A stretch of 64,000 nt of DNA from Favolaschia claudopus (Eukaryota > Basidiomycota > Agaricomycetes > Agaricales > Mycenaceae): contig JAWWNJ010000004.1 of NCBI GenBank assembly GCA_037176885.1, positions 2,108,001 through 2,172,000 of the forward strand, given 5' to 3'. The notes below the pieces were generated by a model that did no database searches, was not told the origin of the DNA, and was given only the letters and a program-made list of their open reading frames with translations. This document shows, in pieces, positions 7,104-35,253 of the stretch. The translations under genes were made by a program, and so were the position numbers. The number at the start of each line of letters is the position of its first letter. Positions within the stretch are counted from its first letter, which is position 1.

Positions 7104-7651
7104 ATTGGGACTTCCTTCTGAGCGTCATCCCAGCCGTTTGTCTAACATAACGGCCAACGGAACGCTTGCACGATAACCTTGGCAACCAGCGATACCAAGC
7201 AATGACAGGGACAGACAGGGACATTTTGCAGAAATCTCCGATTTTCTATGGTTGAAAGTGCGCTGATTAAACAGCTCATCTCTGTCCCTGTTGGACCATT
7301 TGTAAAATTATCGGAGTTTCTCCTCGCAACTTCCTTGGACCACGCGAGCTTGTACCTCAGCACAGCCCTGGGTTTCATCTGGTTTCATACCCGGCTAGAC
7401 TCTCCGTCATGTCTCAGATCTCAGCTCGCATCAGTCCCCGCCTAATTTCGCCTCGACGCATCAATTCTCAACGGAGCACATCAATCTGTCCGGGACTTAT
7501 CATGTGGGGGCCATACTTATACGTCAACGAAACGCCCAAGCCGTTGCTTTTATTTCTTTCACGGCCTTAATACTCTTCTCGCCGGCTCGAGCTTGCTTTC
7601 CGCCGGCATTCCTCCTTTTTTTTCTTTCGTGCAATGTCCCATACCAGTCCT

Positions 7652-15505: not shown

Positions 15506-18139
15506 TCAAGCTAGAAGAACGAGAGGCTGCAATTTCTTGAAATCGAAGAAGCCGAGACCTGCATTCAAATGAGCTTGGGTTACAGTCTCTGCATTGGTGA
15601 ACCGTAACATACCGGACGTAGGATCCCAACTGGACGCATGCATACATCAGCCGTCTGTTCGAAAATACAATACAAAAGCATTCGACTCACCCCTTAGTCG
15701 CGTTGAACCCAGGCTGCTCACACCCACGCACATCTCCCTCTCTGGAATGAGAAACAATCATCACTATATCCAAGCTTTGCGAAGAAGAAGAAACCCGAAC
15801 GAACGTTATATCAACCATACCCTTCAACCCCGCGCCATACAGGAAAGGGTTCAAGAAGCCCAGGGTGGACTTGCCGTGTTGCAGCCGCCAATCATTCAGC
15901 AGAGCGACTATTCCTGCAGCAGTCGGCACGGCGGCGCTGGTACCGCCGCTGATATCCCAGCGGTTGTAATAGTAATCGAAGAACGCTCCGCTGCCTAGAT
16001 TTGGATGAATGAAAAACAAACGAATGAAAATGGGTCAAAGAAAACCCACCGATGCAAGTGATGTCAGGGTACGCGCGACCTTTATGATTGTACATGCTTG
16101 ATTGCATTGCCGTCTCGTTGCGGTGGGCAGGTCCGTTGAGATACCCGGTCACGGCAGCAGCTGCAAATGGGCGAATTGAACTTCAGTCAAAGGACTGAGG
16201 GAAAGGTTTCACCTTGGTACGCTGGCTGGTCGAAATAATATGAAAATCCGGCTCCAGATGCGAACGAAGGCTCTGTCGGGAAGAAGCCGAAGGTCTCACC
16301 GACGGAGGTTACGCTATAACCCCAAGATTTAGAAAGCCAGACGGCCGATGACTTGAATGTAAAGCGCACTAAGGGCAAGAGGCCGGGAAAACGGGCAAAA
16401 ACGTCGTGGCGTTGTTTCCGGTATTCGCGATGCATGACTGAATGAATGGTCCAAGTCAATCGCCAATGAATGAGCGACAAAATTGGAAGGCATACATCAA
16501 CCTCATCTACACCCAATCCCTGATCACCAGTGCTGAACATGACAGTAACACCTCTGTCAAAAGCGAATACCAGTCGGCAGCTGAGTTATTGTTCGCGGAT
16601 ACTACTCACCTCGCTCCGAGTTTTGCAAAACCTTTGCACACGGCGTTGGCATAGTCCTATCACATATCAGCGCAAAATTACTGGTGATTATCGGGTACAA
16701 CGGCGTACTCGCGGAACCTAGAATTAGCCATGAAAGTCAGTCATCAAGATATGAGCATAAAAATGGTAGATTCCTCACAGTTTGCTCGTCATCTCCATAC
16801 GACGTCGTGATAACAGTAGGAGGGTGCTCGAGTGTCAGGATGTAATTGATGAAACTGTGAAAAGAACAATCCAAAATCATTCAAACAGCCAGCGCTATGG
16901 AACGACTAGGACGTACTCGAGATATGGCTCGTTGGTACCAGGCATCTCGCCATCTTGATTCTGGTCGGGAATATAAGGGGGCACAGTGTTTGTCGTATAA
17001 TAAGTCATGGGAATGGGATATGCGACTTGAATGGCTGGCCAGAAAAACGAGTTAGTAGTTGGATGGGTGATATACAAGGCGCGGAAGCTGACCGAGCTGA
17101 GTATCAAGGTTCCCTTCGTCCGAAACAGGGCTGGCATCGAATGGTCCTGGAAATGGCTTAAGTGGGTTGTCAGGTAACAGAGCAAGCTGTTCACTAACCC
17201 GTGATATTCACGATTCCCATCGTGTAGTTGGATCCGATGGATTCAGGTATGTAGTCATTGAGATAGAGTTTCAAGGACTCGCTGCGAAGGGCATAAGAAC
17301 ACTAAATACTTGCTGTCGGACTCAAAAACATACGGTTTAGCCCAAATGTTCAGGTACCCGGAGCTGTTACCAGTCTGATGAGTGCCTCAATAATATAGAG
17401 ACAAGAAACCTCACACTCCGATATGATTTTTCTTTTCATCGATAATCTTTGGTTTGTAGTCTCCAATGTTGTACAGTCTGCGGATGCAAGGCGGATCGGC
17501 AACCGACACACAGCTCGTGAAATCGCTCTGGTTCAGCACCACGGGGCGCTTCTCGAGATGCACGCCATTCGCTTCGGCAGCAGGGCTAGACTCGCGTCGC
17601 CGGGGGGTCAAAAATGCAGTCGTCGGATGAACGAAATCGACGTGGGGAGCGAGCTCCTCGGGCAAGCTGTAGCTCAGCGTGCGCACGACGCGCTCCCCCG
17701 TCGGTCCGTGCTCGAAGACGCCGAAGCGGGTGGAGAACATGGACTCGGCGGAGGATACGGACACCACAGCAGTGACGCTGTCCTTTGAAGGTGTCCACTT
17801 CACAGACTTCGCGTCGTTCGCCGAAAGCCAGTCGGATACGAGTTGCACGGCTTCTTCAGTGGGCGTCGATAAGGCGTGAACCTCATCTCTCGAAAGGTGA
17901 TTCCCATAACTGGGATGCGACGGATCACTGATATCCAGCAGCAAAGACTCGAGCTGGGGGAAGTCATGCTGGGTCAATCCAAAGCGCAGTTTCAAGCCTC
18001 GGGTTGGAGACAGCTCTGCGTCCTGCAGTTCTGTCCAACCAGAAGGGATGCCGGACAGCGCGTCCTTCAGCACCGACGACGCAGAGGCACCCGCCAAAAA
18101 TGCGAGGAAAAGGCTGCACCAGCAAGGTGACAGAACCAT
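15506..18139 (-). CDS. Secreted sedolisin (S53) protease, left paralogue
   Basis: Secreted acid serine-carboxyl protease of the tripeptidyl-peptidase/sedolisin family. Exon 1 (18139 to about 17411) has a signal peptide (MVLSPCWCSLFLAFLAGAS) and a pro-kumamolisin activation domain. About a dozen short exons follow, each joined by a GT..AG intron of 45-70 nt. The catalytic Glu and Asp sit in DEGNLDTQ (about 17100), the oxyanion Asp in STGDQGLG (about 16530), and the nucleophilic Ser in GGTSAAVPTAAG (about 15930). All four residues are present, and I found no stop or frameshift in the exons I followed. The stop is at 15506-15508. A TATA box lies about 50 bp upstream. The gene is the left member of an inverted pair with 44048-46699. 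Confidence 0.85.
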
Positions 18140-18188
18140 GGTGGTGGGGGAATGGAACAAGTGTACAGTTGGCTAGAGCTCTCGCGCC

Positions 18189-18738: not shown

Positions 18739-18745
18739 GTACTTA
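18739..18745. repeat. GTACTTA, left element boundary
   Basis: First of three identical 7-bp sites (18739, 26993 and 35247) spaced exactly 8254 bp apart. It is the likely crossover or target site of the recombinase. Left flank is ACATACGA. Confidence 0.75.
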
Positions 18746-19064
18746 TGTTTTTTGTTTTACGGGCTTTGATCCTGCCGGCCTGTCAATGATGCCATCAACC
18801 GCGTCCCCTTTGGGCGTGTTTGATGCCCGGCCTTCCTTAACGGGAACAGGAACGTCTTGAGTCGGTTGCTGGTGCAGGAGGGAAGTCCTTAACACTTGAG
18901 GCTTGGGGGGGACTGGGAACATATTCTTGATGCCTACTCTCAGACGAGGAAATAGTCTCTGACTGCTAATTTGTATGTACGGTACGGAATGACAAGGAGC
19001 TATTTATTAAATGGCAAGTCAAGAAAAAAAACCGACCAATAGCAGGTAAATTCGTGCAGCTAGA

Positions 19065-21338
19065 TTAATGGGCACTACCTCTCTTGCTCCGCCGCCCTAC
19101 TGTTACTCCCCGAGCCTTGTTGCTCTCTCTAATAGCCTCAATGAGTTTCGAAATTCGTTTATGGGCCTCAGGGTATGCTTTGATGAATTCCGACTCGTTA
19201 CGACCCAATCTGGGCAAGGGAAATAAGAACAATGACACTGGAGAAGGGGGTAACGTCGACTGACCTTTCGTACTCTTCAAAAATCAGTTTGCGCTGAGAT
19301 CGCTTTGCCCCAGTGACCTTTCTCATCCCATCCGAGTACCACTCCCGCGGCCAATCCCGTAAAGCCTTCAAGCCCTGGTTCTCATCACCGTACTCCCACT
19401 GACGAACGGCATCCAGCCAGGCCCGGTCGCCCTTCTTCAGGTCGGGAATAGCAACGCCAGCAAGAACTTCAACTTGCTCGGATATCGGAATGCGAGAATT
19501 GGGGCGGGAAGTTGTATTGGAGGTCGAAGCATTCGGAGGGGTGTTACTCGGGGGGATTGGCTGGGTAGGTGCAGAAAGCAGGACTGGTGGTGAGGCAGGA
19601 TGCGACAGCGGTGAGGGCGTAGCTCGACGATGGTGAGAAAGTGTAGCCTCGAGGCTGATGGCTTTCAGCTGTGCCATAATCTCGGCCGTCGTCGCGCGGA
19701 ATTCTTGTGTGGTGACTGGCTTCACCTGCAGATGTTCTCCCATAAAACTCTTGTCGACTTCGTGCTGTACAGGACACAGGGCATCGGCGTGCCCTGTCTC
19801 ATAGCTTTGGAGAGAATCAAGAAGGTACTTCATCAGGGTATCAACCTAAACAAGGTCACCGTCCGAGATTCAGTTATCATCCTATTTGGGAATAGTTGGA
19901 GACTTACATGTTCGCCGATTGCCCATCCCGCCCCACCACCGAACAATATTTAAAGACCACCGCTTTCCCAAAGGTGCGAACATGAACCTGTACTGCGCTC
20001 CGCCACGACGAAAGCTGTGAGTCGTATACGTTTTCTTGAGTCCTGCTCCCACCGTGAATTCGGTAATGAGATCCTGGCACATCTGCAGAGTCATTTCTCG
20101 CTTCGGGTGAATAGTTCCGTTTGTTGCAATGTAAGGGAATATATAATCGTCTGGCTGAAGTTTGCGTCCGAGGCAAAGCTCGTAGAACGGCAGCCAGACA
20201 AGCAGATACTGGTACATGTCAAGAGCGGGAAGGTCCGGTTGTCCGTAGATGTTATATTCATTGCCTAACCCATTGTGAGTGCTGTGACTTAGGCGATCAT
20301 AGTTAAATACTGACTCTCTCGCGTTCCATCGTAGCCTTGCTTGTGCTGCCAACCTTTTCGGCCATCCAAGAAAACCTTGAAGTAGGGATGATTGAATGGT
20401 AAGGGCGTGACACAATTCAAAGTGAGGTCTCGCATCTGGAGGCCACAAAGCTCGAAGTTCCTGGCAGATCGCATTCAGCAGACACTCGGAATAATTATAC
20501 TGAATTAACAGCACCTTGTCCAAAGTGTGAACCCGCTCGACGCAAACCCGCGCATCAAACCATGCTTCAAAAGTAAAATTCGCTCTGCCAGAACAGTGGG
20601 TGCAATGCCGGCTTTTGTGGCTTCCACAAGCTTTGCCGTTGGGCAAACAGACTCTGACCAGTTCATTAGGCAAGTCATATCTTCAACGGACATGGCCTCG
20701 GCGTGGTTTCTTGTTGCAGCCGCGCCCTTTTCTCCGTCACGAATTTTGATAATTTTGACAAGACTTTTCACAATTCCGGCGCGCGCGGGACAGCCAGTGA
20801 CTTTATTGGTTTCGTCATTCCAATGGTACTCCCCTGCATATTTATCGCCGTCCCTGACAAATTAGCAGTCAGAAACGAAATATTCAGCGAACAAGCAGCA
20901 ATAAAGAGGTCCGTACATATTATCCCAATACTTTGCATACGCACCATGGATTCCATCAGCGGTACTTTTCCCGAGGCCTTCTACAAGACACTTTTGGGTA
21001 ATGAACATCTCCAGAGCGATGGCTGAATGCTGATTCGGTGGCTTGGAGAACGCCTTGGCCAATAAATCTGTGTCAATCCCTTGCTCGCAAACCCAATCAG
21101 GATCTTTCTCCCTTCTTTGCCTGCGCTCTTCAACTACGGCGGCCAGAAACTCATCGCCTCTTGCCAGGTAGCCTCCATAGGCCTTGGTAGTGTTCTCCGC
21201 ATTGGTATATTTTGCGCGGGCATCCCTAGTATTTTGCGCTAATGTCTGACCGGTCACAGATTGCTTTTCTGAGTCTTTTTTCTTTCTTCCACCGGATTTC
21301 TTCCCTTCAGCGGAGGTATTCTTGCTTGTGCGAGCCAT
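19065..21338 (-). CDS. Tyrosine recombinase, copy A (one frameshift)
   Basis: DNA strand-exchange enzyme of the fungal Crypton-type family. Six exons: 21338-20917, 20853-20515, 20460-20315, 20264-19908, 19845-19265 and 19209-19065. The catalytic set is visible: box I Arg in MRDLTL, Lys in DGRKGW, HSFRRGG (HxxR), Trp in RWWGG, and Tyr in LMKYLLD. The N-terminus is Lys/Arg-rich (GGRKKKDSEK), probably DNA-binding. The C-terminus has a Ser/Thr/Pro-rich linker and a basic tail. Exon 4 has one extra G next to RWWGG (about 19930), which breaks the frame before the Tyr; the exons sum to 1990 nt where 1989 (662 aa) is expected. Exon 2 here is the in-frame version. The extra base sits in a G/C run and could be a sequencing error. 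Confidence 0.85.
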
Positions 21339-21437
21339 TAGAAAGATAATAAGATAGAGATGGTAGAGTAGAATGTAAGAAGCAAAGACAAAATGTGTTT
21401 AGGGGTACATTATAAATTGACTACCATATCCGGAAGA
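21339..21437 (-). promoter_or_regulatory. 99-bp spacer between XPG-like stop and recombinase start
   Basis: Short CT-rich spacer (minus strand) with a TATAATG patch and the run CTTATTATCTTTCT just before the recombinase ATG. It must hold the whole recombinase promoter, unless the two genes share one transcript. The same sequence is in copy B (29592-29690). Confidence 0.4.
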
Positions 21438-23410
21438 CTACAGCGTTGAATGTGTATTCTCTTTGTCCTCCACCTTGCCCTCTTGAATGATTCCCTCAAC
21501 CAAGGGACGTAAATCCCCATTCCAACCCGTTGCCGGCAAGGGAAAAGACGCCAGATGAGCTTTCAATGTATGAATGAGAGCTCCGGAGTACACCTTGGAG
21601 CCAAACCGACGCGGACGCTCATTACAAGGATGGCGTGTGTCCGGTGCTTCATAAGGAGTGGAGTCGAGAATCTAGACCACCTGAATCAGCCTGGTAGCAG
21701 CCCTAGAACAAGCAAATCACTTACCGGTCGATAATACTCGCTTCGAGTTTCAAGATGTGCCGGTGAGTGTTTTTCGTAATGCTGTACCAACAAGGGAAGC
21801 GCGTGAGAAAGGATTTGGCGCGGTATAGTGATGCGAATCTTTGCGCTGGGTGGACCAGTGCCTTCGCAAAAGGCGGCCACAATGGGAGCAACAAAAACTT
21901 CGACTTTGAAAGCTGTACGAGAACGTCCGCATATTGAAAGAAATGAGGACAGAGGCGGTATGGCTTCGTTGACCATGTCTTGCAGAAGATGCGCCTGCAA
22001 GAGTTCCATCTCATTGCATGGCTCAAAAAATATAGATTCCTTAGAGGTGTAGAATAGGATGCGAGAATAACAATAACACACCTCAGAAAGGCGCCTCACA
22101 CATATGGCGGTGATGAACGCGATCAGGAACCCAGATGGAATAGAGGCTACAGATCTCCATTGAAAATACCGCCCCCACAATCTGCGGAGCGAAGTGAGGT
22201 CAGGAGCCCTGGGGATCCAGAGTGCTGCATCGCAAGAGGTGGGAAAGGAGGGGGTGTCACCAACGTAGAGGTGAACGGTGTTGATATCTGGAAATGCGTC
22301 GGACACATCCGCAATGATTTCCGATGTCTTGTTGGCCCGAACGAGCTCTTCGCGCAGCTCAGGACGCCACAGGATCAAATACGCAGCCAACTCTGGAGGG
22401 GACAGAGTTTGCGCTGCCAGCAACAGGGTGTCGCCTAAGCCGCACAGCGCCAATGTATACGCAATTGATTCAGTGCATCCGGCAAGGCCCTGGAAATTGT
22501 CAATACAAGATGTACACCAAGTAAAAACATGACGCACGTCGTTATACCTTCCTCCCATTAGCAGACAAAACAGTAGAAGGCCGCCTCGCGATAAATAGGT
22601 ACACTTGTGAATGTTTTTGGACGTATAGATAGCAGCCTCGCTGTAATCGTCCTCCTGTGGGCTTTGAGCAGTCAGCATAATTTACAGGAGCAACTGTGAA
22701 TACAACACCAACCTATAAACGACATGAGTGGCTCCCAAAACAAACGCTTCCGCCTCGATGGTAAATATCAAGTCCAAGGCACCTGTTCGGTTGAGGCACG
22801 CAAGCTCTATCACAATATCTCCCTCAGCCTGAATGATTGTCAGTATAAAGGGATTAGATATCATTGACAATACATACAAGACGAGAATAAAAACCAAATG
22901 CCTGGACCAAAGAGTGGAAAGGACCAGCCAGTGGATGCCGCGTTGCTGGTACATCGAAGAAAAAGACGGCGGTGACGGATAATCCAAATATACGACACAG
23001 TCGGCAGCAAATATCATTGAGAGTGATATTCGGCTCGGATAGCCAGGTGCTGAGAGAAGCGAATGAATAAATTGTTAAGCCCAGTCTGCTATCACTTACG
23101 TGGCATCGATACCAATACGGAGGGAGAGAATCCCGTTGCGATTGGGGACAAACCCCTCCATGATGGTGAGATGCTTCAAAGCCCGCCGCCGAACTGCGGG
23201 CTCCAGTATCTATACATTGTCAGCATAACAATCAAAGTCTGAGAGGGGGAGAGCTGCTCGTACCAGCCAGAGTTCATCCATGCTCAGTGGTGGTGTGAGG
23301 AGAAAGACTTCAAGACTTCTCCTATTCCAATCCCGATTCGGCAGTCTCCATTTCCGCCCCGTCAAAAGACGAAGAGTCGTCAAGCCGCCCCATGGTGTCA
23401 CGGAGCGCAT
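21438..23410 (-). CDS. XPG/FEN1/GEN1-fold (PIN-like) protein, copy A, intact
   Basis: Eight exons (23410-23264, 23209-23100, 23049-22878, 22828-22713, 22661-22538, 22489-22082, 22039-21725 and 21671-21438) sum to 1626 nt, giving 541 aa. The N-region has LRIGIDATTWL and VFFFDVP, like the first acidic residues of structure-specific nucleases. The I-region reads EGDIVIELACLNRTGALD, then IEAEAFVLGAT. The helix-hairpin-helix-like part reads LSRGGLLLFCLLMGGRYND and GLAGCTESIAYTLALCGLGD. The order and spacing match the Agaricomycete XPG/GEN1-like family. Several metal-binding acidic positions are changed: one Glu of the I-region to Val, Asp to Glu twice, and GGDY to GGRY. The fold is clear; nuclease activity is doubtful. 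The gene ends 99 bp upstream of the recombinase start. Confidence 0.8.
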
Positions 23411-24027
23411 TTAGGTGCGCAACGAAGGCTCCCATGACCGCTAGGAAAGTGTCGGAGCAAGCTTCCTATGAGAATGGAAATAAATGGGACATGTCGCAGC
23501 ATTGGCTGTTATCTAATTAGTTTCCAGTCAATTCGGCGAATGTTCAAGTACGCACCATGCAACGCAAACTCTGGATTACTGAAATGGTTGTCCGTCTACC
23601 TCAAACTGGTTATTTCACGGCGATCGGTGTCACGGAATGCACGTAGGTGCAAAACGAAGGCTCCCGAAACCGGCTGCATTTGGAGGTGGCAAAGGAGACA
23701 TGCGCGTGTCATTGAGCGCGATGAGATAGCTCAGAATCAGGAGCTAAAAAGAAGAAGGATTAGCAAAGAAAGCATCCAGTTGAACAAGATTCAAACCTTC
23801 CAGTGGCAGAGATTGAATGATTCAATTGAGGATCTCGTGAGTTGGGTCCGGATTTGTCTTATATCAACCCAGATTTGTGAAGATTGCAACGGAGTGTACC
23901 GCAGCACACAACAAAGGTTTCCGAGTAGAGATTGAGCCGGGTGGCAGGGTGATATACAAGTTGTCGCCGAATCATGGTAGGTGGCGGGAGGAAAACAGTG
24001 ACTTCCTTTTTGGGATGTGACTCAACA

Positions 24028-24275
24028 ACGCGTGTCGCGTTGACGCGTTTTCGCGTCCACTTCGCCGTGGAGTTTACCGGCTCGTTCCCAGACCCTCACG
24101 CCACCTTTTGTACGCGTGAAACCACGTGAGACGCGTCGAAATTTGGCTGCATGTGGCCAAAACTCGTCGCGTCGAGGTCGGTATTATTTTGGCGTTTTTA
24201 ACACTGTGCAGGATTTCATTGTATCAACTCTTATGCTGCGACACAAATTTTGTTCAGAACGCGTGAAAAACGCGT
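24028..24275. promoter_or_regulatory. Cluster of six ACGCGT (MCB) motifs, copy A
   Basis: Exact ACGCGT palindromes start at 24028, 24043, 24112, 24131, 24259 and 24270. A TTTTGGCG (E2F-like) motif lies at about 24187. In fungi ACGCGT is the site of the MBF (Mbp1/Swi6-type) G1/S transcription factor. The cluster lies 620-870 bp upstream of the XPG-like start codon. Confidence 0.55.
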
Positions 24276-24511
24276 TAATTGTTCCATCTTCAACTTTTCT
24301 CAATCCGGGTCAGCAAGTTTCGGGGGCAGCTGTGTGCCACATTGCATCGCTGGGTGCTGCAAATATAGTAGAAGCCTGTACTGCGGCTGCTGGCGTTAGG
24401 GGTGTTAGGTACGGGTAGGATAAGACCAAAGCTTCAGAGAAAAGTGAGCACAAAGCGCTGTCCTGGGCGCGGGGGAGGCAAATAAGCAAGTAAGTGCTTA
24501 TTTCAAATCAG

Positions 24512-24543
24512 TTTACCGTAAAATGATCTTGATTTACGGTAAA
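24512..24543. repeat. Inverted repeat TTTACCGTAAA / TTTACGGTAAA, copy A
   Basis: Perfect 11-bp arms with a 10-bp spacer. The arm core (TTTACGG) recurs inside both element ends, which suggests a binding site for the recombinase or another element protein. The copy B equivalent is at 32766-32797. Confidence 0.6.
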
Positions 24544-26940
24544 ATACGTCCCACGTGACAGTCGCGCGCCGCAATTTACGCGCCAATAACGCGCGTTTGG
24601 CGGCCCCGCAGCGCATTTTGAGAACTAGGGTATGTCTCTAGCATACATACACTTGATTCCACGCCCACTAACCACTAATTTTCCTCTCAGCACCGTCTCA
24701 GTAAATTGATTATGTGCACTAAGTCGATTTCGAAGTTTCACTACACAGGCTTTGCACTGTGCAGACCCATCTGCCTTGGTTGCAGTAGATGTGTACGTCC
24801 AATCTATTGAGCATATCTTACTACAAATAAGGTAGAGTTAGGGCACCGGGTCCGTATTGGTATGTACAAGTTCTTATTTGGGACATTTGTGCATCAGTGG
24901 AAGAATGTGTCGAGAGGCGGCAACGGCAGCAGGAAATGGCGAGAATCAGAGGCCTGAAAGAGAGGAACAACACTCAGCTCATAATAAAGGCACAGAAATA
25001 GACAAGAGACTTACCATCAGCAGATATCATTTGTATAACAGTGTAGGGCGGAGCTGAAGGAAGACAGCCGTTGAACGGCAACACCGATACTTACAAGTGC
25101 AGGAGAAGGTGTTAAAAGTTTTGATTCATCTGCAGGTGCATTTATTCCGCCGCTTCCGCCGTCGAAAAACAAAAGAACGTACTCAATTTTGATTTGAGGG
25201 CTGCTTTCCAGTTGGTTGCTGCCCGTAGCGCAACGTTGGATGAAGTTGCAGTCGGCCGTGTTGGTGTAGAGGGCGGGGGGTGGTACGGCGTGTTCGAGGA
25301 GAGTCGGATTTAGGGCGGTGGGTTTGCGAGACCTAAGACGGCGGAAGGGGCAGATGGGGTATGAGGTGTGGGTACAGTGGTGGCGGCTGCGGCTGCGGCG
25401 GCGGGTGCGGGTGCGGGTAAGATGATGGATGTAGAAGAGTGGAAGACTAGGGAGACGGCAGTGTCGTTAGCATGGTGCGGGAGGTAGGGAGAGAGAACGG
25501 CGGGACAAAACCTTTTCTCCTTATGTCCTACTTTTCTGTAGTGCGAGTTACGCAGACGACAGCTGCAGCAGGGCGTGGTGGAGGTGAACTCTGTGGGTGC
25601 GGGTTGTTTGGCTGGTGAAGACAAAGGCAGGGTGGCGGGTTTGAGATAGGTGGACAAGCTAACTAGATGTTGTTAGTGCAGATAACGGAAAAGACAGCGG
25701 CGACGAACGTGTGTCGCTGCTGTGTCGCTAAGCAGATGGAGGTGCGGTAGGTGTGTGAAAACAGCGAGGCTGGGTAACCCGGCAACTTTTGTGTGTGTCG
25801 AAGTTGGGGGAGTTGCCAAGAAGACTTGGAGAGGCGGCGCTGTAGTAGGGAGAGGTTGAAAGAGTGGGGAGAGCGCAGCTGAAGGGAAGGGGATGAGGTG
25901 AAGAAAGAGGTAAACCAAAAACAGCCACGCACATTGACGCGTGTGCGGACGTGCTGCGTGGCGACTGCATCTCATCGCATGTAGTATTTTGAGTGGCGGA
26001 GCGAGCAACTGAAAATAGTTCAGTTTATACAAAACAACATAAACCCGAGAGAGACAGACGACATACATTGTGTTGGTAGCTGAGATGCACGACGAGTGCG
26101 ATCGTTCGGCGACGCTGTCCGGACTCACGAGCATAACAGCAGAGAGACAGCGTCCGGGGCGTACTGTTTGTGCTTTGGTTTGTACAAAACAATGTGAAAT
26201 GAGTGAAATACATACGCTTTTGTGAACACACCTAATTTGGGATAATGATTGAAAGGAGAGATGAATACGGCTGTTCAGCGATAATGGCTAGCTATCTAAA
26301 AGAAACGGGTATTTGGAGCGCCACAGGCTAGCTGTTACAACTTTAGTTCTAAGGGGAAGAGATGGAAATGAGGGAGATACATACTTTTTCTGATCTCCAG
26401 GTGGAGATGGCGAGAAATCTGCAAACACAGAATTGCGGCAAACGCGGCGATGGGTTCGAGCGTGTAGCTACATTGATGGCGTACCAGGGGACCTGTCTAC
26501 GCTTGGGTTCATGTAAACGAAGCAAGAAATTGGAAAGATACATACACAATTGTCCCGATTTTGGGGCGGTTACCGAATGAGAGTGGACACAGCTATCAAA
26601 GGTGTAGACAGCAACAATGGAGTAGTGAACGTTGTCGGAAGCACCTGGGGATGGCGAGTAGGCGGTAGGGAGCGGCAGGAGAGAAGCGCGAGAAGAGGGC
26701 GGCGGCGAGACACAGTGTGCGAGGGTTTTTTTAAGCAAATCCGAATTTTGATTCTCTTCAGCTCGATTCTCCGATTCTCTAAGCTCTTCAGATTGATGGT
26801 GGCTCCGACCCGACAGAGAGAGGGCATGCGCATGCGCGCACGCGTCGTTTGTCTGCTTACGGTGGTGGTGGGAGGAGCGAGACCGGGGATCAAACGCGCT
26901 GATCGAATTGATCCAGCGCTGATGATGCTGTCCCGGGCAC

Positions 26941-26963
26941 CGGTAAATCGCCACGATTTACCG
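26941..26963. repeat. Palindrome CGGTAAATCG-CCA-CGATTTACCG near right end, copy A
   Basis: Perfect 10-bp arms with a 3-bp spacer, 30 bp from the element edge. It is followed by CCGTAAATTAAGGTAAAT, which repeats the GTAAAT core twice more before GTACTTA. The copy B equivalent is at 35195-35217. Confidence 0.65.
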
Positions 26964-26992
26964 TGCATTTCCGTAAATTAAGGTAAATAAAG

Positions 26993-26999
26993 GTACTTA
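26993..26999. repeat. GTACTTA, junction of copies A and B
   Basis: The A/B junction carries one copy of the 7-bp site, as expected if a circular form integrated into the end of a resident copy. Confidence 0.75.
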
Positions 27000-27317
27000 T
27001 GTTTTTTGTTTTACGGGCTTTGATCCTGCCGGCCTGTCAATGATGCCATCAACCGCGTCCCCTTTGGGCGTGTTTGATGCCCGGCCTTCCTTAACGGGAA
27101 CAGGAACGTCTTGAGTCGGTTGCTGGTGCAGGAGGGAAGTCCTTAACACTTGAGGCTTGGGGGGACTGGGAACATATTCTTGATGCCTACTCTCAGACGA
27201 GGAAATAGTCTCTGACTGCTAATTTGTATGTACGGTACGGAATGACAAGGAGCTATTTATTAAATGGCAAGTCAAGAAAAAAAACCGACCAATAGCAGGT
27301 AAATTCGTGCAGCTAGA

Positions 27318-29591
27318 TTAATGGGCACTACCTCTCTTGCTCCGCCGCCCTACTGTTACTCCCCGAGCCTTGTTGCTCTCTCTAATAGCCTCAATGAGTT
27401 TCGAAATTCGTTTATGGGCCTCAGGGTATGCTTTGATGAATTCCGACTCGTTACGACCCAATCTGGGCAAGGGAAATAAGAACAATGACACTGGAGAAGG
27501 GGGTAACGTCGACTGACCTTTCGTACTCTTCAAAAATCAGTTTGCGCTGAGATCGCTTTGCCCCAGTGACCTTTCTCATCCCATCCGAGTACCACTCCCG
27601 CGGCCAATCCCGTAAAGCCTTCAAGCCCTGGTTCTCATCACCGTACTCCCACTGACGAACGGCATCCAGCCAGGCCCGGTCGCCCTTCTTCAGGTCGGGA
27701 ATAGCAACGCCAGCAAGAACTTCAACTTGCTCGGATATCGGAATGCGAGAATTGGGGCGGGAAGTTGTATTGGAGGTCGAAGCATTCGGAGGGGTGTTAC
27801 TCGGGGGGATTGGCTGGGTAGGTGCAGAAAGCAGGACTGGTGGTGAGGCAGGATGCGACAGCGGTGAGGGCGTAGCTCGACGATGGTGAGAAAGTGTAGC
27901 CTCGAGGCTGATGGCTTTCAGCTGTGCCATAATCTCGGCCGTCGTCGCGCGGAATTCTTGTGTGGTGACTGGCTTCACCTGCAGATGTTCTCCCATAAAA
28001 CTCTTGTCGACTTCGTGCTGTACAGGACACAGGGCATCGGCGTGCCCTGTCTCATAGCTTTGGAGAGAATCAAGAAGGTACTTCATCAGGGTATCAACCT
28101 AAACAAGGTCACCGTCCGAGATTCAGTTATCATCCTATTTGGGAATAGTTGGAGACTTACATGTTCGCCGATTGCCCATCCGCCCCACCACCGAACAATA
28201 TTTAAAGACCACCGCTTTCCCAAAGGTGCGAACATGAACCTGTACTGCGCTCCGCCACGACGAAAGCTGTGAGTCGTATACGTTTTCTTGAGTCCTGCTC
28301 CCACCGTGAATTCGGTAATGAGATCCTGGCACATCTGCAGAGTCATTTCTCGCTTCGGGTGAATAGTTCCGTTTGTTGCAATGTAAGGGAATATATAATC
28401 GTCTGGCTGAAGTTTGCGTCCGAGGCAAAGCTCGTAGAACGGCAGCCAGACAAGCAGATACTGGTACATGTCAAGAGCGGGAAGGTCCGGTTGTCCGTAG
28501 ATGTTATATTCATTGCCTAACCCATTGTGAGTGCTGTGACTTAGGCGATCATAGTTAAATACTGACTCTCTCGCGTTCCATCGTAGCCTTGCTTGTGCTG
28601 CCAACCTTTTCGGCCATCCAAGAAAACCTTGAAGTAGGGATGATTGAATGGTAAGGGCGTGACACAATTCAAAGTGAGGTCTCGCATCTGGAGGCCACAA
28701 AGCTCGAAGTTCCTGGCAGATCGCATTCAGCAGACACTCGGAATAATTATACTGAATTAACAGCACCTTGTCCAAAGTGTGAACCCGCTCGACGCAAACC
28801 CGCGCATCAAACCATGCTTCAAAAGTAAAATTCGCTCTGCCAGAACAGTGGGTGCAATGCCGGCTTTTGTGGCTTCCACAAGCTTTGCCGTTGGGCAAAC
28901 AGACTCTGACCAGTTCATTAGGCAAGTCATATCTTCAACGGACATGGCCTCGGCGTGGTTTCTTGTTGCAGCCGCGCCCTTTTCTCCGTCACGAATTTTG
29001 ATAATTTTGACAAGACTTTTCACAATTCCGGCGCGCGCGGGGACAGCCAGTGACTTTATTGGTTTCGTCATTCCAATGGTACTCCCCTGCATATTTATCG
29101 CCGTCCCTGACAAATTAGCAGTCAGAAACGAAATATTCAGCGAACAAGCAGCAATAAAGAGGTCCGTACATATTATCCCAATACTTTGCATACGCACCAT
29201 GGATTCCATCAGCGGTACTTTTCCCGAGGCCTTCTACAAGACACTTTTGGGTAATGAACATCTCCAGAGCGATGGCTGAATGCTGATTCGGTGGCTTGGA
29301 GAACGCCTTGGCCAATAAATCTGTGTCAATCCCTTGCTCGCAAACCCAATCAGGATCTTTCTCCCTTCTTTGCCTGCGCTCTTCAACTACGGCGGCCAGA
29401 AACTCATCGCCTCTTGCCAGGTAGCCTCCATAGGCCTTGGTAGTGTTCTCCGCATTGGTATATTTTGCGCGGGCATCCCTAGTATTTTGCGCTAATGTCT
29501 GACCGGTCACAGATTGCTTTTCTGAGTCTTTTTTCTTTCTTCCACCGGATTTCTTCCCTTCAGCGGAGGTATTCTTGCTTGTGCGAGCCAT
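27318..29591 (-). CDS. Tyrosine recombinase, copy B (different frameshift)
   Basis: Same gene and splice pattern as in copy A, offset by about 8253 bp. Exon 4 is in frame here, so RWWGGW, the following intron and the Tyr-containing LMKYLLD all read correctly. Exon 2 instead carries one extra G at about 29040, in the CCCC run after TGC, and breaks the frame about 20 residues into that exon. As sequenced, each copy is broken at a different place and neither gives a full-length enzyme. Confidence 0.8.
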
Positions 29592-29690
29592 TAGAAAGAT
29601 AATAAGATAGAGATGGTAGAGTAGAATGTAAGAAGCAAAGACAAAATGTGTTTAGGGGTACATTATAAATTGACTACCATATCCGGAAGA

Positions 29691-31664
29691 CTACAGCGTT
29701 GAATGTGTATTCTCTTTGTCCTCCACCTTGCCCTCTTGAATGATTCCCTCAACCAAGGGACGTAAATCCCCATTCCAACCCGTTGCCGGCAAGGGAAAAG
29801 ACGCCAGATGAGCTTTCAATGTATGAATGAGAGCTCCGGAGTACACCTTGGAGCCAAACCGACGCGGACGCTCATTACAAGGATGGCGTGTGTCCGGTGC
29901 TTCATAAGGAGTGGAGTCGAGAATCTAGACCACCTGAATCAGCCTGGTAGCAGCCCTAGAACAAGCAAATCACTTACCGGTCGATAATACTCGCTTCGAG
30001 TTTCAAGATGTGCCGGTGAGTGTTTTTCGTAATGCTGTACCAACAAGGGAAGCGCGTGAGAAAGGATTTGGCGCGGTATAGTGATGCGAATCTTTGCGCT
30101 GGGTGGACCAGTGCCTTCGCAAAAGGCGGCCACAATGGGAGCAACAAAAACTTCGACTTTGAAAGCTGTACGAGAACGTCCGCATATTGAAAGAAATGAG
30201 GACAGAGGCGGTATGGCTTCGTTGACCATGTCTTGCAGAAGATGCGCCTGCAAGAGTTCCATCTCATTGCATGGCTCAAAAAATATAGATTCCTTAGAGG
30301 TGTAGAATAGGATGCGAGAATAACAATAACACACCTCAGAAAGGCGCCTCACACATATGGCGGTGATGAACGCGATCAGGAACCCAGATGGAATAGAGGC
30401 TACAGATCTCCATTGAAAATACCGCCCCCACAATCTGCGGAGCGAAGTGAGGTCAGGAGCCCTGGGGATCCAGAGTGCTGCATCGCAAGAGGTGGGAAAG
30501 GAGGGGGGTGTCACCAACGTAGAGGTGAACGGTGTTGATATCTGGAAATGCGTCGGACACATCCGCAATGATTTCCGATGTCTTGTTGGCCCGAACGAGC
30601 TCTTCGCGCAGCTCAGGACGCCACAGGATCAAATACGCAGCCAACTCTGGAGGGGACAGAGTTTGCGCTGCCAGCAACAGGGTGTCGCCTAAGCCGCACA
30701 GCGCCAATGTATACGCAATTGATTCAGTGCATCCGGCAAGGCCCTGGAAATTGTCAATACAAGATGTACACCAAGTAAAAACATGACGCACGTCGTTATA
30801 CCTTCCTCCCATTAGCAGACAAAACAGTAGAAGGCCGCCTCGCGATAAATAGGTACACTTGTGAATGTTTTTGGACGTATAGATAGCAGCCTCGCTGTAA
30901 TCGTCCTCCTGTGGGCTTTGAGCAGTCAGCATAATTTACAGGAGCAACTGTGAATACAACACCAACCTATAAACGACATGAGTGGCTCCCAAAACAAACG
31001 CTTCCGCCTCGATGGTAAATATCAAGTCCAAGGCACCTGTTCGGTTGAGGCACGCAAGCTCTATCACAATATCTCCCTCAGCCTGAATGATTGTCAGTAT
31101 AAAGGGATTAGATATCATTGACAATACATACAAGACGAGAATAAAAACCAAATGCCTGGACCAAAGAGTGGAAAGGACCAGCCAGTGGATGCCGCGTTGC
31201 TGGTACATCGAAGAAAAAGACGGCGGTGACGGATAATCCAAATATACGACACAGTCGGCAGCAAATATCATTGAGAGTGATATTCGGCTCGGATAGCCAG
31301 GTGCTGAGAGAAGCGAATGAATAAATTGTTAAGCCCAGTCTGCTATCACTTACGTGGCATCGATACCAATACGGAGGGAGAGAATCCCGTTGCGATTGGG
31401 GACAAACCCCTCCATGATGGTGAGATGCTTCAAAGCCCGCCGCCGAACTGCGGGCTCCAGTATCTATACATTGTCAGCATAACAATCAAAGTCTGAGAGG
31501 GGGAGAGCTGCTCGTACCAGCCAGAGTTCATCCATGCTCAGTGGTGGTGTGAGGAGAAAGACTTCAAGACTTCTCCTATTCCAATCCCGATTCGGCAGTC
31601 TCCATTTCCGCCCCGTCAAAAGACGAAGAGTCGTCAAGCCGCCCCATGGTGTCACGGAGCGCAT
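29691..31664 (-). CDS. XPG/FEN1/GEN1-fold protein, copy B (frameshifted)
   Basis: Same eight-exon gene as in copy A. Exon 6 has one extra G in the GGGGGG run at about 30500, just after the DTP residues, so the frame is lost for the C-terminal 45 percent. Upstream and downstream exons are otherwise identical in the parts compared. The break may be a real pseudogenisation or a homopolymer sequencing error. Confidence 0.75.
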
Positions 31665-32282
31665 TTAGGTGCGCAACGAAGGCTCCCATGACCGCTAGGA
31701 AAGTGTCGGAGCAAGCTTCCTATGAGAATGGAAATAAATGGGACATGTCGCAGCATTGGCTGTTATCTAATTAGTTTCCAGTCAATTCGGCGAATGTTCA
31801 AGTACGCACCATGCAACGCAAACTCTGGATTACTGAAATGGTTGGTCCGTCTACCTCAAACTGGTTATTTCACGGCGATCGGTGTCACGGAATGCACGTA
31901 GGTGCAAAACGAAGGCTCCCGAAACCGGCTGCATTTGGAGGTGGCAAAGGAGACATGCGCGTGTCATTGAGCGCGATGAGATAGCTCAGAATCAGGAGCT
32001 AAAAAGAAGAAGGATTAGCAAAGAAAGCATCCAGTTGAACAAGATTCAAACCTTCCAGTGGCAGAGATTGAATGATTCAATTGAGGATCTCGTGAGTTGG
32101 GTCCGGATTTGTCTTATATCAACCCAGATTTGTGAAGATTGCAACGGAGTGTACCGCAGCACACAACAAAGGTTTCCGAGTAGAGATTGAGCCGGGTGGC
32201 AGGGTGATATACAAGTTGTCGCCGAATCATGGTAGGTGGCGGGAGGAAAACAGTGACTTCCTTTTTGGGATGTGACTCAACA

Positions 32283-32530
32283 ACGCGTGTCGCGTTGACG
32301 CGTTTTCGCGTCCACTTCGCCGTGGAGTTTACCGGCTCGTTCCCAGACCCTCACGCCACCTTTTGTACGCGTGAAACCACGTGAGACGCGTCGAAATTTG
32401 GCTGCATGTGGCCAAAACTCGTCGCGTCGAGGTCGGTATTATTTTGGCGTTTTTAACACTGTGCAGGATTTCATTGTATCAACTCTTATGCTGCGACACA
32501 AATTTTGTTCAGAACGCGTGAAAAACGCGT
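32283..32530. promoter_or_regulatory. Cluster of six ACGCGT (MCB) motifs, copy B
   Basis: Same cluster in copy B, first motif at 32283 and last at 32525-32530. Confidence 0.55.
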
Positions 32531-35246
32531 TAATTGTTCCATCTTCAACTTTCTCAATCCGGGTCAGCAAGTTTCGGGGGCAGCTGTGTGCCACATTGCA
32601 TCGCTGGGTGCTGCAAATATAGTAGAAGCCTGTACTGCGGCTGCTGGCGTTAGGGGTGTTAGGTACGGGTAGGATAAGACCAAAGCTTCAGAGAAAAGTG
32701 AGCACAAAGCGCTGTCCTGGGCGCGGGGGAGGCAAATAAGCAAGTAAGTGCTTATTTCAAATCAGTTTACCGTAAAATGATCTTGATTTACGGTAAAATA
32801 CGTCCCACGTGACAGTCGCGCGCCGCAATTTACGCGCCAATAACGCGCGTTTGGCGGCCCCGCAGCGCATTTTGAGAACTAGGGTATGTCTCTAGCATAC
32901 ATACACTTGATTCCACGCCCACTAACCACTAATTTTCCTCTCAGCACCGTCTCAGTAAATTGATTATGTGCACTAAGTCGATTTCGAAGTTTCACTACAC
33001 AGGCTTTGCACTGTGCAGACCCATCTGCCTTGGTTGCAGTAGATGTGTACGTCCAATCTATTGAGCATATCTTACTACAAATAAGGTAGAGTTAGGGCAC
33101 CGGGTCCGTATTGGTATGTACAAGTTCTTATTTGGGACATTTGTGCATCAGTGGAAGAATGTGTCGAGAGGCGGCAACGGCAGCAGGAAATGGCGAGAAT
33201 CAGAGGCCTGAAAGAGAGGAACAACACTCAGCTCATAATAAAGGCACAGAAATAGACAAGAGACTTACCATCAGCAGATATCATTTGTATAACAGTGTAG
33301 GGCGGAGCTGAAGGAAGACAGCCGTTGAACGGCAACACCGATACTTACAAGTGCAGGAGAAGGTGTTAAAAGTTTTGATTCATCTGCAGGTGCATTTATT
33401 CCGCCGCTTCCGCCGTCGAAAAACAAAAGAACGTACTCAATTTTGATTTGAGGGCTGCTTTCCAGTTGGTTGCTGCCCGTAGCGCAACGTTGGATGAAGT
33501 TGCAGTCGGCCGTGTTGGTGTAGAGGGCGGGGGGTGGTACGGCGTGTTCGAGGAGAGTCGGATTTAGGGCGGTGGGTTTGCGAGACCTAAGACGGCGGAA
33601 GGGGCAGATGGGGTATGAGGTGTGGGTACAGTGGTGGCGGCTGCGGCTGCGGCGGCGGGTGCGGGTGCGGGTAAGATGATGGATGTAGAAGAGTGGAAGA
33701 CTAGGGAGACGGCAGTGTCGTTAGCATGGTGCGGGAGGTAGGGAGAGAGAACGGCGGGACAAAACCTTTTCTCCTTATGTCCTACTTTTCTGTAGTGCGA
33801 GTTACGCAGACGACAGCTGCAGCAGGGCGTGGTGGAGGTGAACTCTGTGGGTGCGGGTTGTTTGGCTGGTGAAGACAAAGGCAGGGTGGCGGGTTTGAGA
33901 TAGGTGGACAAGCTAACTAGATGTTGTTAGTGCAGATAACGGAAAAGACAGCGGCGACGAACGTGTGTCGCTGCTGTGTCGCTAAGCAGATGGAGGTGCG
34001 GTAGGTGTGTGAAAACAGCGAGGCTGGGTAACCCGGCAACTTTTGTGTGTGTCGAAGTTGGGGGAGTTGCCAAGAAGACTTGGAGAGGCGGCGCTGTAGT
34101 AGGGAGAGGTTGAAAGAGTGGGGAGAGCGCAGCTGAAGGGAAGGGGATGAGGTGAAGAAAGAGGTAAACCAAAAACAGCCACGCACATTGACGCGTGTGC
34201 GGACGTGCTGCGTGGCGACTGCATCTCATCGCATGTAGTATTTTGAGTGGCGGAGCGAGCAACTGAAAATAGTTCAGTTTATACAAAACAACATAAACCC
34301 GAGAGAGACAGACGACATACATTGTGTTGGTAGCTGAGATGCACGACGAGTGCGATCGTTCGGCGACGCTGTCCGGACTCACGAGCATAACAGCAGAGAG
34401 ACAGCGTCCGGGGCGTACTGTTTGTGCTTTGGTTTGTACAAAACAATGTGAAATGAGTGAAATACATACGCTTTTGTGAACACACCTAATTTGGGATAAT
34501 GATTGAAAGGAGAGATGAATACGGCTGTTCAGCGATAATGGCTAGCTATCTAAAAGAAACGGGTATTTGGAGCGCCACAGGCTAGCTGTTACAACTTTAG
34601 TTCTAAGGGGAAGAGATGGAAATGAGGGAGATACATACTTTTTCTGATCTCCAGGTGGAGATGGCGAGAAATCTGCAAACACAGAATTGCGGCAAACGCG
34701 GCGATGGGTTCGAGCGTGTAGCTACATTGATGGCGTACCAGGGGACCTGTCTACGCTTGGGTTCATGTAAACGAAGCAAGAAATTGGAAAGATACATACA
34801 CAATTGTCCCGATTTTGGGGCGGTTACCGAATGAGAGTGGACACAGCTATCAAAGGTGTAGACAGCAACAATGGAGTAGTGAACGTTGTCGGAAGCACCT
34901 GGGGATGGCGAGTAGGCGGTAGGGAGCGGCAGGAGAGAAGCGCGAGAAGAGGGCGGCGGCGAGACACAGTGTGCGAGGGTTTTTTTAAGCAAATCCGAAT
35001 TTTGATTCTCTTCAGCTCGATTCTCCGATTCTCTAAGCTCTTCAGATTGATGGTGGCTCCGACCCGACAGAGAGAGGGCATGCGCATGCGCGCACGCGTC
35101 GTTTGTCTGCTTACGGTGGTGGTGGGAGGAGCGAGACCGGGGATCAAACGCGCTGATCGAATTGATCCAGCGCTGATGATGCTGTCCCGGGCACCGGTAA
35201 ATCGCCACGATTTACCGTGCATTTCCGTAAATTAAGGTAAATAAAG

Positions 35247-35253
35247 GTACTTA
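35247..35253. repeat. GTACTTA, right element boundary
   Basis: Third copy of the site. The sequence after it (GCAGTACAGATATTAC) continues the host intergenic sequence seen in the right-hand duplicate arm at about 43420-43437. Confidence 0.75.

Follow-up and report, generated by a model that had tools for sequence, protein, structure and literature searches.

The window analysed here, a 64-kb stretch of one Favolaschia claudopus assembly of 264.6 Mb (C4:2108001-2172000), contains a tandem array of a transposon that encodes a tyrosine recombinase (YR) and carries a recurrent second gene, a relative of the Holliday-junction resolvase GEN1. The observations as a whole are best explained by a two-gene DNA transposon with a Cre-like YR and a GEN1-like partner, a reading to which a probability of roughly 0.8 is given; the element and its site-specific mode of recombination, taken on their own, are very likely.

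Self-identity at an offset of 8254 spans 18739-26999, which gives two units of 8254 bp in direct tandem over 18739-35253 (Table 1), and GTACTTA stands exactly at 18739, 26993 and 35247, that is, at the left edge, the unit/unit junction and the right edge. With five occurrences on the plus strand and three on the minus strand of the 64 kb, this heptamer is rare, and three copies placed exactly at the edges and the junction are therefore not due to chance. A preliminary description of this DNA had proposed two head-to-tail 8254-bp units with GTACTTA at these places, and the offset identity and exact positions confirm it. Alignment of the two units over 8264 columns revealed no substitutions and six single-base indels, and this near-identity suggests that the element has been active recently. 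In each unit the genes lie on the minus strand, the GEN1-like gene first, followed by the YR gene.

Similar structures occur elsewhere in the genome. A 1262-base query from the left end gave 22 matches, and complete or nearly complete relatives that keep both genes were found on C446, C29, C8 (two units, at the locus C8-785k), C52 and C84, the YR match in C84 being limited to residues 1-485 of 664. The C8-785k units form a second tandem pair (C8 785551-802839, period 8641) and are 3 substitutions apart, plus the terminal host base. A genome-wide search with the YR returned 114 matches, and a tandem pair of a second family lies at C8 729816-745154 (family 2; locus C8-734k, period 7667), with a YR ∼39% identical to that of family 1, to which the window units belong. 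The GEN1-like gene of family 2 is again upstream of the YR and keeps GEAEAE, DDGD and GGDYD, while the edges and junction carry TAAGT, which, read on the complementary strand, forms part of the family 1 core described below. Additionally, element right ends on C160, C114, C50, C75, C103 and C120 are joined to other internal sequence, those on C160 and C50 adjoining a repeat; such right-end-only copies are possibly non-autonomous or decayed.

The preliminary description had taken GTACTTA to be the shared boundary, and its placement is indeed exact, but the core common to the copies is the 6-bp TACTTA (TAAGTA on the gene strand). A 7-bp GTACTTA core is ruled out, as the first base is variable both in the copies and in empty sites. 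Filled copies have TACTTA as direct repeats at both ends, with the host's first base retained in the left core and the right core mostly being the element's GTACTTA. Seven filled insertion sites were compared with unoccupied homologues, and a single pre-existing core (TACTTA or TAAGT(A)) was present at four, absent at two, and could not be read at the seventh, C52, for which no spanning empty homologue was found. The empty homologue of the C84 site (C20) reads GAG-TTACTTA-TGTAC, those of the C29 site (C82 and C6) read CCGC-ATACTTA-TCCG, and those of the family 2 site (C79 and C10) read TTAAGTATAT, containing TTAAGTA. For C8-785k, which is counted with the caveat that its two flanks derive from different repeats, the right-flank homologues C10 and C3 have TACTTA, and CTACTTA stands in two array copies of the repeat on the left flank; four copies of that repeat elsewhere (C165, C28, C53 and C7) diverge at the insertion point. 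Since the core is already single in the empty homologues of four of the seven sites, integration reuses a short site that was there before, in agreement with what has been proposed for Cryptons. This, together with the pattern of core bases, is what conservative site-specific recombination with a 5-6 bp overlap would be expected to leave.

Several comparisons weigh against this picture. The paralogues of the window locus on C22 and C12 read GAGTAGCAG, without CTTA, and the repeat on the right flank of the C160, C50 and C75 copies has ACGAATA, not TACTTA, in all nine other copies read, although these copies of the repeat also diverge just past the junction and the right flank alone was compared. 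C336 matches the left flank alone of the C84 site, diverging inside the core (TTACAG), and at their 3' ends the two families do not match in register (score 25, 1 of 500 shuffles). A target consisting of TA alone, as suggested by C22 and C12 and by the C160 flank repeat, is contradicted by the four sites with TACTTA or TAAGTA. The 5' ends of the two families, on the other hand, align with a score of 33, reached in 0 of 500 mononucleotide shuffles, and both families have short inverted arms based on GTAAA/TTTAC round the core, with a spacing equal within one base; the likeness of the arms between families was matched in 1 of 2000 shuffles, the arms having been spotted by eye ahead of that test. 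Taken together, the arrays, the self-closing contig C446 (see below), the single-core empty sites and the like arms in two families define a recombination site open to testing. On its left, the C8-785k array is flanked (C8 781012-785550) by a dispersed repeat, itself in an array of period 1092, the units of which are separated by CTACTTA, including the target core of the element, at the two borders read; related repeats are arrayed on C28 and C57, with periods of 1246 and 1076.

In the mechanism proposed here, the Cre-like YR would pair two 6-bp TACTTA cores and excise the element as a circle carrying one core, which would then integrate either at a host TACTTA or into a copy already in place, the latter leading to units arranged head to tail with a single core at each junction. 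The GEN1-like protein would join the YR at the Holliday-junction intermediate: the protein of the window's family most likely binds or shapes the junction without cutting it, and that of the family in which the I-region acids are intact may resolve junctions as well. We infer that transposition proceeds through this circle. The contig C446, 22,287 bp long, has unit position 7307 as its first base and 7306 as its last, so that it closes on itself, and contains one right-end/left-end junction; it differs from the window units by one substitution and scattered indels. A long terminal repeat (LTR) retrotransposon of ∼14 kb (C446 5150-19180), of Gypsy type as judged by its open reading frame (ORF), sits inside its GEN1-like gene, with 1839-bp LTRs that are 99.95% identical.

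The preliminary description had a circular form integrating into a resident copy, and the self-closing C446 and the three tandem loci agree with this, but the step itself is inferred, as an identical array could arise without a free circle, if the left core of one chromatid and the right core of its sister underwent unequal site-specific exchange. Such exchange predicts the same structure and would fit the near-identity of units within one array, whereas the closure of C446 speaks for a circle, unless this contig is an array unresolved in the assembly graph. Exchange between chromatids is therefore regarded as a possible but less favored origin of the arrays.

The preliminary description had viewed the recombinase and the XPG-superfamily gene as one element, a view supported by the order and strand kept in relatives and at divergent loci. 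Within the F. claudopus genome, the expectation of an XPG-like gene upstream on the same strand was borne out at 10 of the 11 YR loci inspected, the requirement for inclusion being a YR match covering at least residues 60-420 of P0002. The ten are the window, C446 (interrupted), C29, C8-785k, C52, C84, C229, C8-734k, C59 and C114, the last four being the divergent loci, with the gene on C229 being incomplete (PIN and I regions unmatched). Outside this genome, 277 relatives of the YR were found at E 1e-3 or better, and among the best 120 of these, all 119 with a species name belong to Agaricomycetes. Gene models of Cyclocybe aegerita (P0108) and Arthromyces matolae (P0065) continue from a GEN1-like gene into the YR, and in P0124 GEN1-like sequence continues into the start of the YR. 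A match to the GEN1-like gene without a YR was found on C102. Some observations count against strict linkage: no GEN1-like match was found at C137 in the 1.3 kb read, nor a GEN1-like gene in the stretches fetched at the YR-fragment loci C228, C111 and C117, which lowers the count to 10 of 14 when fragments are included, and the YR is fused to the GEN1-like gene in only two among the best 120 of the 277 relatives.

The second protein is closest to the Holliday-junction resolvase GEN1, by profile and structure model. A family profile of seven sequences, including canonical mushroom PIN-domain-like proteins, had GEN1 as its best match (E 4.5e-49), as did the structure model of the C84 copy P0122 (E 1.4e-16, template modeling (TM) score 0.74 by target), which has a mean predicted local distance difference test score (pLDDT) of 73 and a predicted TM score (pTM) of 0.74. 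The second gene of XPG/FEN1/GEN1 fold reported earlier is a real part of the unit, with GEN1 scoring better than FEN1 or XPG, both of which are rejected as nearest relative. Against this assignment, the window protein on its own reaches E 0.065 with Pfam XPG_I, which is below the cut-off, and P0123 on its own has no Pfam XPG_I match.

The acids listed for C. thermophilum GEN1 in PMC4695337 are D38, D79, E120, E122, D141, D143 and D199, and the alanine mutants described there show almost unchanged binding and impaired cleavage, the D38 mutant being the least affected. By our own reading of the alignment with this protein, the window's family keeps two of the seven acids (the D38 and D79 positions), while E120 is replaced by D, D141 and D143 by E, E122 by V, and D199 by K or R, with ∼12 residues fewer after the second Asp. 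With catalytic acids replaced, binding without cutting is expected, and from these substitutions the GEN1-like protein of the window's family has probably lost its nuclease activity. The I-region acids and GGDY are canonical, however, in the proteins of C8-734k (family 2), C59 and C114. With a Holliday-junction-forming recombinase next to a resolvase relative, and with the catalytic site of the latter seemingly defective in one family and preserved in others, these elements offer a natural experiment on what use such a protein is to a transposon. A junction-binding role, as suggested by these residues, is put forward tentatively, at somewhat less than even odds.

The ratio of non-synonymous to synonymous substitution rates (dN/dS) of the GEN1-like gene is 0.13-0.26 in family 1 (10 pairs, with dS > 1 in six, and with C29 and C8 models lifted from C52 by alignment), compared with 0.04-0.08 for the YR (six pairs, with dS > 1 in five, and with a C29 model likewise lifted from C52, in which a single stop falls at an exon border). 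In a comparison by 400-base windows, the C29 copy is a mosaic that combines a GEN1 block like that of C52 (0.87-0.97) with a YR block like that of the window copy (0.88-0.97). The C84 copy has a GEN1 gene closest to that of the window copy (0.75-0.83), set between flanking windows that resemble C8 (0.91-0.99). The breakpoints lie between genes, at 400-base resolution, as if the two blocks were exchanged as cassettes by recombination between elements. Such apparent exchange, with the GEN1-like gene of C84 set among C8-like neighbors, would suit a passenger, be it cargo or a selfish nuclease in its own right, riding with the recombinase. The altered catalytic acids of the window's family and a dN/dS above that of the YR point the same way, as does C446, where the gene is interrupted yet the junction is circular, meaning that the gene is dispensable in cis, which is also a point against the proposed partnership. 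Linkage, order and strand nevertheless persist across YRs that are ∼39-58% identical, and dN/dS in family 1 is itself low enough to argue against a mere passenger, an explanation that is accordingly thought rather doubtful. More speculative is the wider proposal that a superfamily of mushroom YR transposons encodes its own relative of a Holliday-junction resolvase, which would cut or hold the four-way intermediate as partner of the recombinase; this suggestion is given a fairly low probability. If it is true, some mushroom genes annotated as 'PIN domain-like' or 'XPG-I' may stem from such elements.

The YR possesses the catalytic R-H-R-Y of tyrosine recombinases, and in the aligned relatives R254, K289 and H385 are present in 46 of 46 and R388 and Y428 in 45 of 46. 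A structure model made for the C52 copy P0003 (mean pLDDT 77, pTM 0.46) had Cre as its best match in the PDB (E 3.5e-06, TM 0.47 by target), while a PDB search with the YR profile gave a single match at E 0.26. RWWGGWAIGEH is missing from the deposited model P0001 but present in the C8 and C52 proteins, and a one-base difference between the window units falls in this stretch. The C-terminal domain is predicted to be helical in the P0003 model; a search for GCR1_C, the sensitivity of which is limited by the hidden Markov model, matched one of 46 YRs (E 0.14) and none of five C-terminal pieces. Starships are fungal mobile elements that are likewise driven by a YR, the DUF3435 captain, which is their first gene and is followed by large cargo. 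With a threshold of E 1, DUF3435 weakly matched 36 of the 46 YRs (lowest E 0.00024), which might suggest a small relative of Starships and not of Cryptons. In the seven proteins tabulated, however, these matches are below the curated cut-off and cover 41-55 of the 418 model positions, Phage_integrase is matched as well (18 of 46 YRs), the YR is the downstream gene, and the unit is small, at 8 kb, with no cargo block, making a Starship origin improbable. An assembly artefact as the origin of the second unit and of C446 is most improbable, for although the window units differ by single-base indels alone, as is typical of sequencing error, like junctions occur at three loci in two families, substitutions separate the C8-785k units, and C446 holds a nested LTR element.

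Near the right end of the unit, 24893-26861 is unmatched in C29 and partly matched in C8, and the one ORF tested in this stretch (25673-26134) had no Pfam match. Outside the array, a Pro-kumamolisin activation domain (sedolisin-type protease) is encoded by an ORF on the minus strand at 17411-18160. The start of this ORF is ∼580 bp from the array, which may thus have been inserted within its upstream region.

Table 1. Positions in the window of the element units, their genes and their recombination sites.
Feature	Position	Strand	Remarks
Element unit 1	18739..26992	- (genes)	8254 bp; offset identity, alignment
Element unit 2	26993..35246	-	head to tail with unit 1
Left core (G)TACTTA	18739..18745	.	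nTACTTA single in empty sites of other copies, not in the window's paralogues
Junction core, right end and left end joined	26993..26999	.	junction alike in C446 and C8-785k
Right core GTACTTA	35247..35253	.	
Left terminal sequence, 3' end by gene orientation	18739..18848	.	13 genome matches
Right terminal sequence, 5' end by gene orientation	26861..26999	.	300-base query ending here: 21 matches
Putative recombinase site	26971..27016	.	inverted arms CCGTAAA (26971-26977) and TTTACGG (27010-27016) flanking the core
YR gene, unit 1 (P0001)	19068..21338	-	deposited model, six exons; exact protein mapping
YR gene, unit 2	27322..29592	-	approximate; from the 8254-bp offset, P0001 not mapping exactly there
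GEN1-like (XPG-fold) gene, unit 1 (P0121, 543 aa)	21441..23410	-	deposited-protein mapping
GEN1-like (XPG-fold) gene, unit 2	29694..31664	-	deposited-protein mapping

Among known systems, the second protein shares its fold with the GEN1/Yen1 resolvases, and the proteins of family 2, C59 and C114 share the canonical I-region acids as well, but unlike these resolvases it is borne by a transposon, and in the window's family its stretch after the second Asp is ∼12 residues shorter, with the residues aligned to E122, D199 and other acids replaced. The earlier view that Cryptons are essentially recombinase-only does not hold throughout, as the oomycete CryptonF-2_PS and its relatives encode a C48 peptidase besides the YR, according to the passages on these elements in PMC3212892. 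The present element resembles them in adding a second function to a Crypton YR, which there is a peptidase and here a junction-resolvase fold. None of the titles and abstract starts among the literature matches listed describes a Crypton or a YR element that carries an XPG/GEN1 gene, subscription papers and Repbase reports lying outside this search; the one text containing both 'Crypton' and 'Agaricomycetes' concerns a marine species register.

The element works like a Crypton and is regarded as Crypton-like in kind, in a form that appears to be little known. Membership in CryptonF is not established, since GCR1_C, the hallmark that follows the YR in CryptonF, was not detected here and the comparison is with the published description, not by tree. 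As CryptonF of fungi and oomycetes is portrayed in the relevant sections of Kojima and Jurka (2011; PMC3212892), both are DNA elements that encode a YR, both have short terminal direct repeats (4-6 bp in CryptonF) as the recombination substrate, and for both a circular intermediate is proposed, in Cryptons by analogy with prokaryotic elements. What sets the F. claudopus element apart is its additional GEN1-like gene and the fact that its arrays and single-core empty sites are observed directly.

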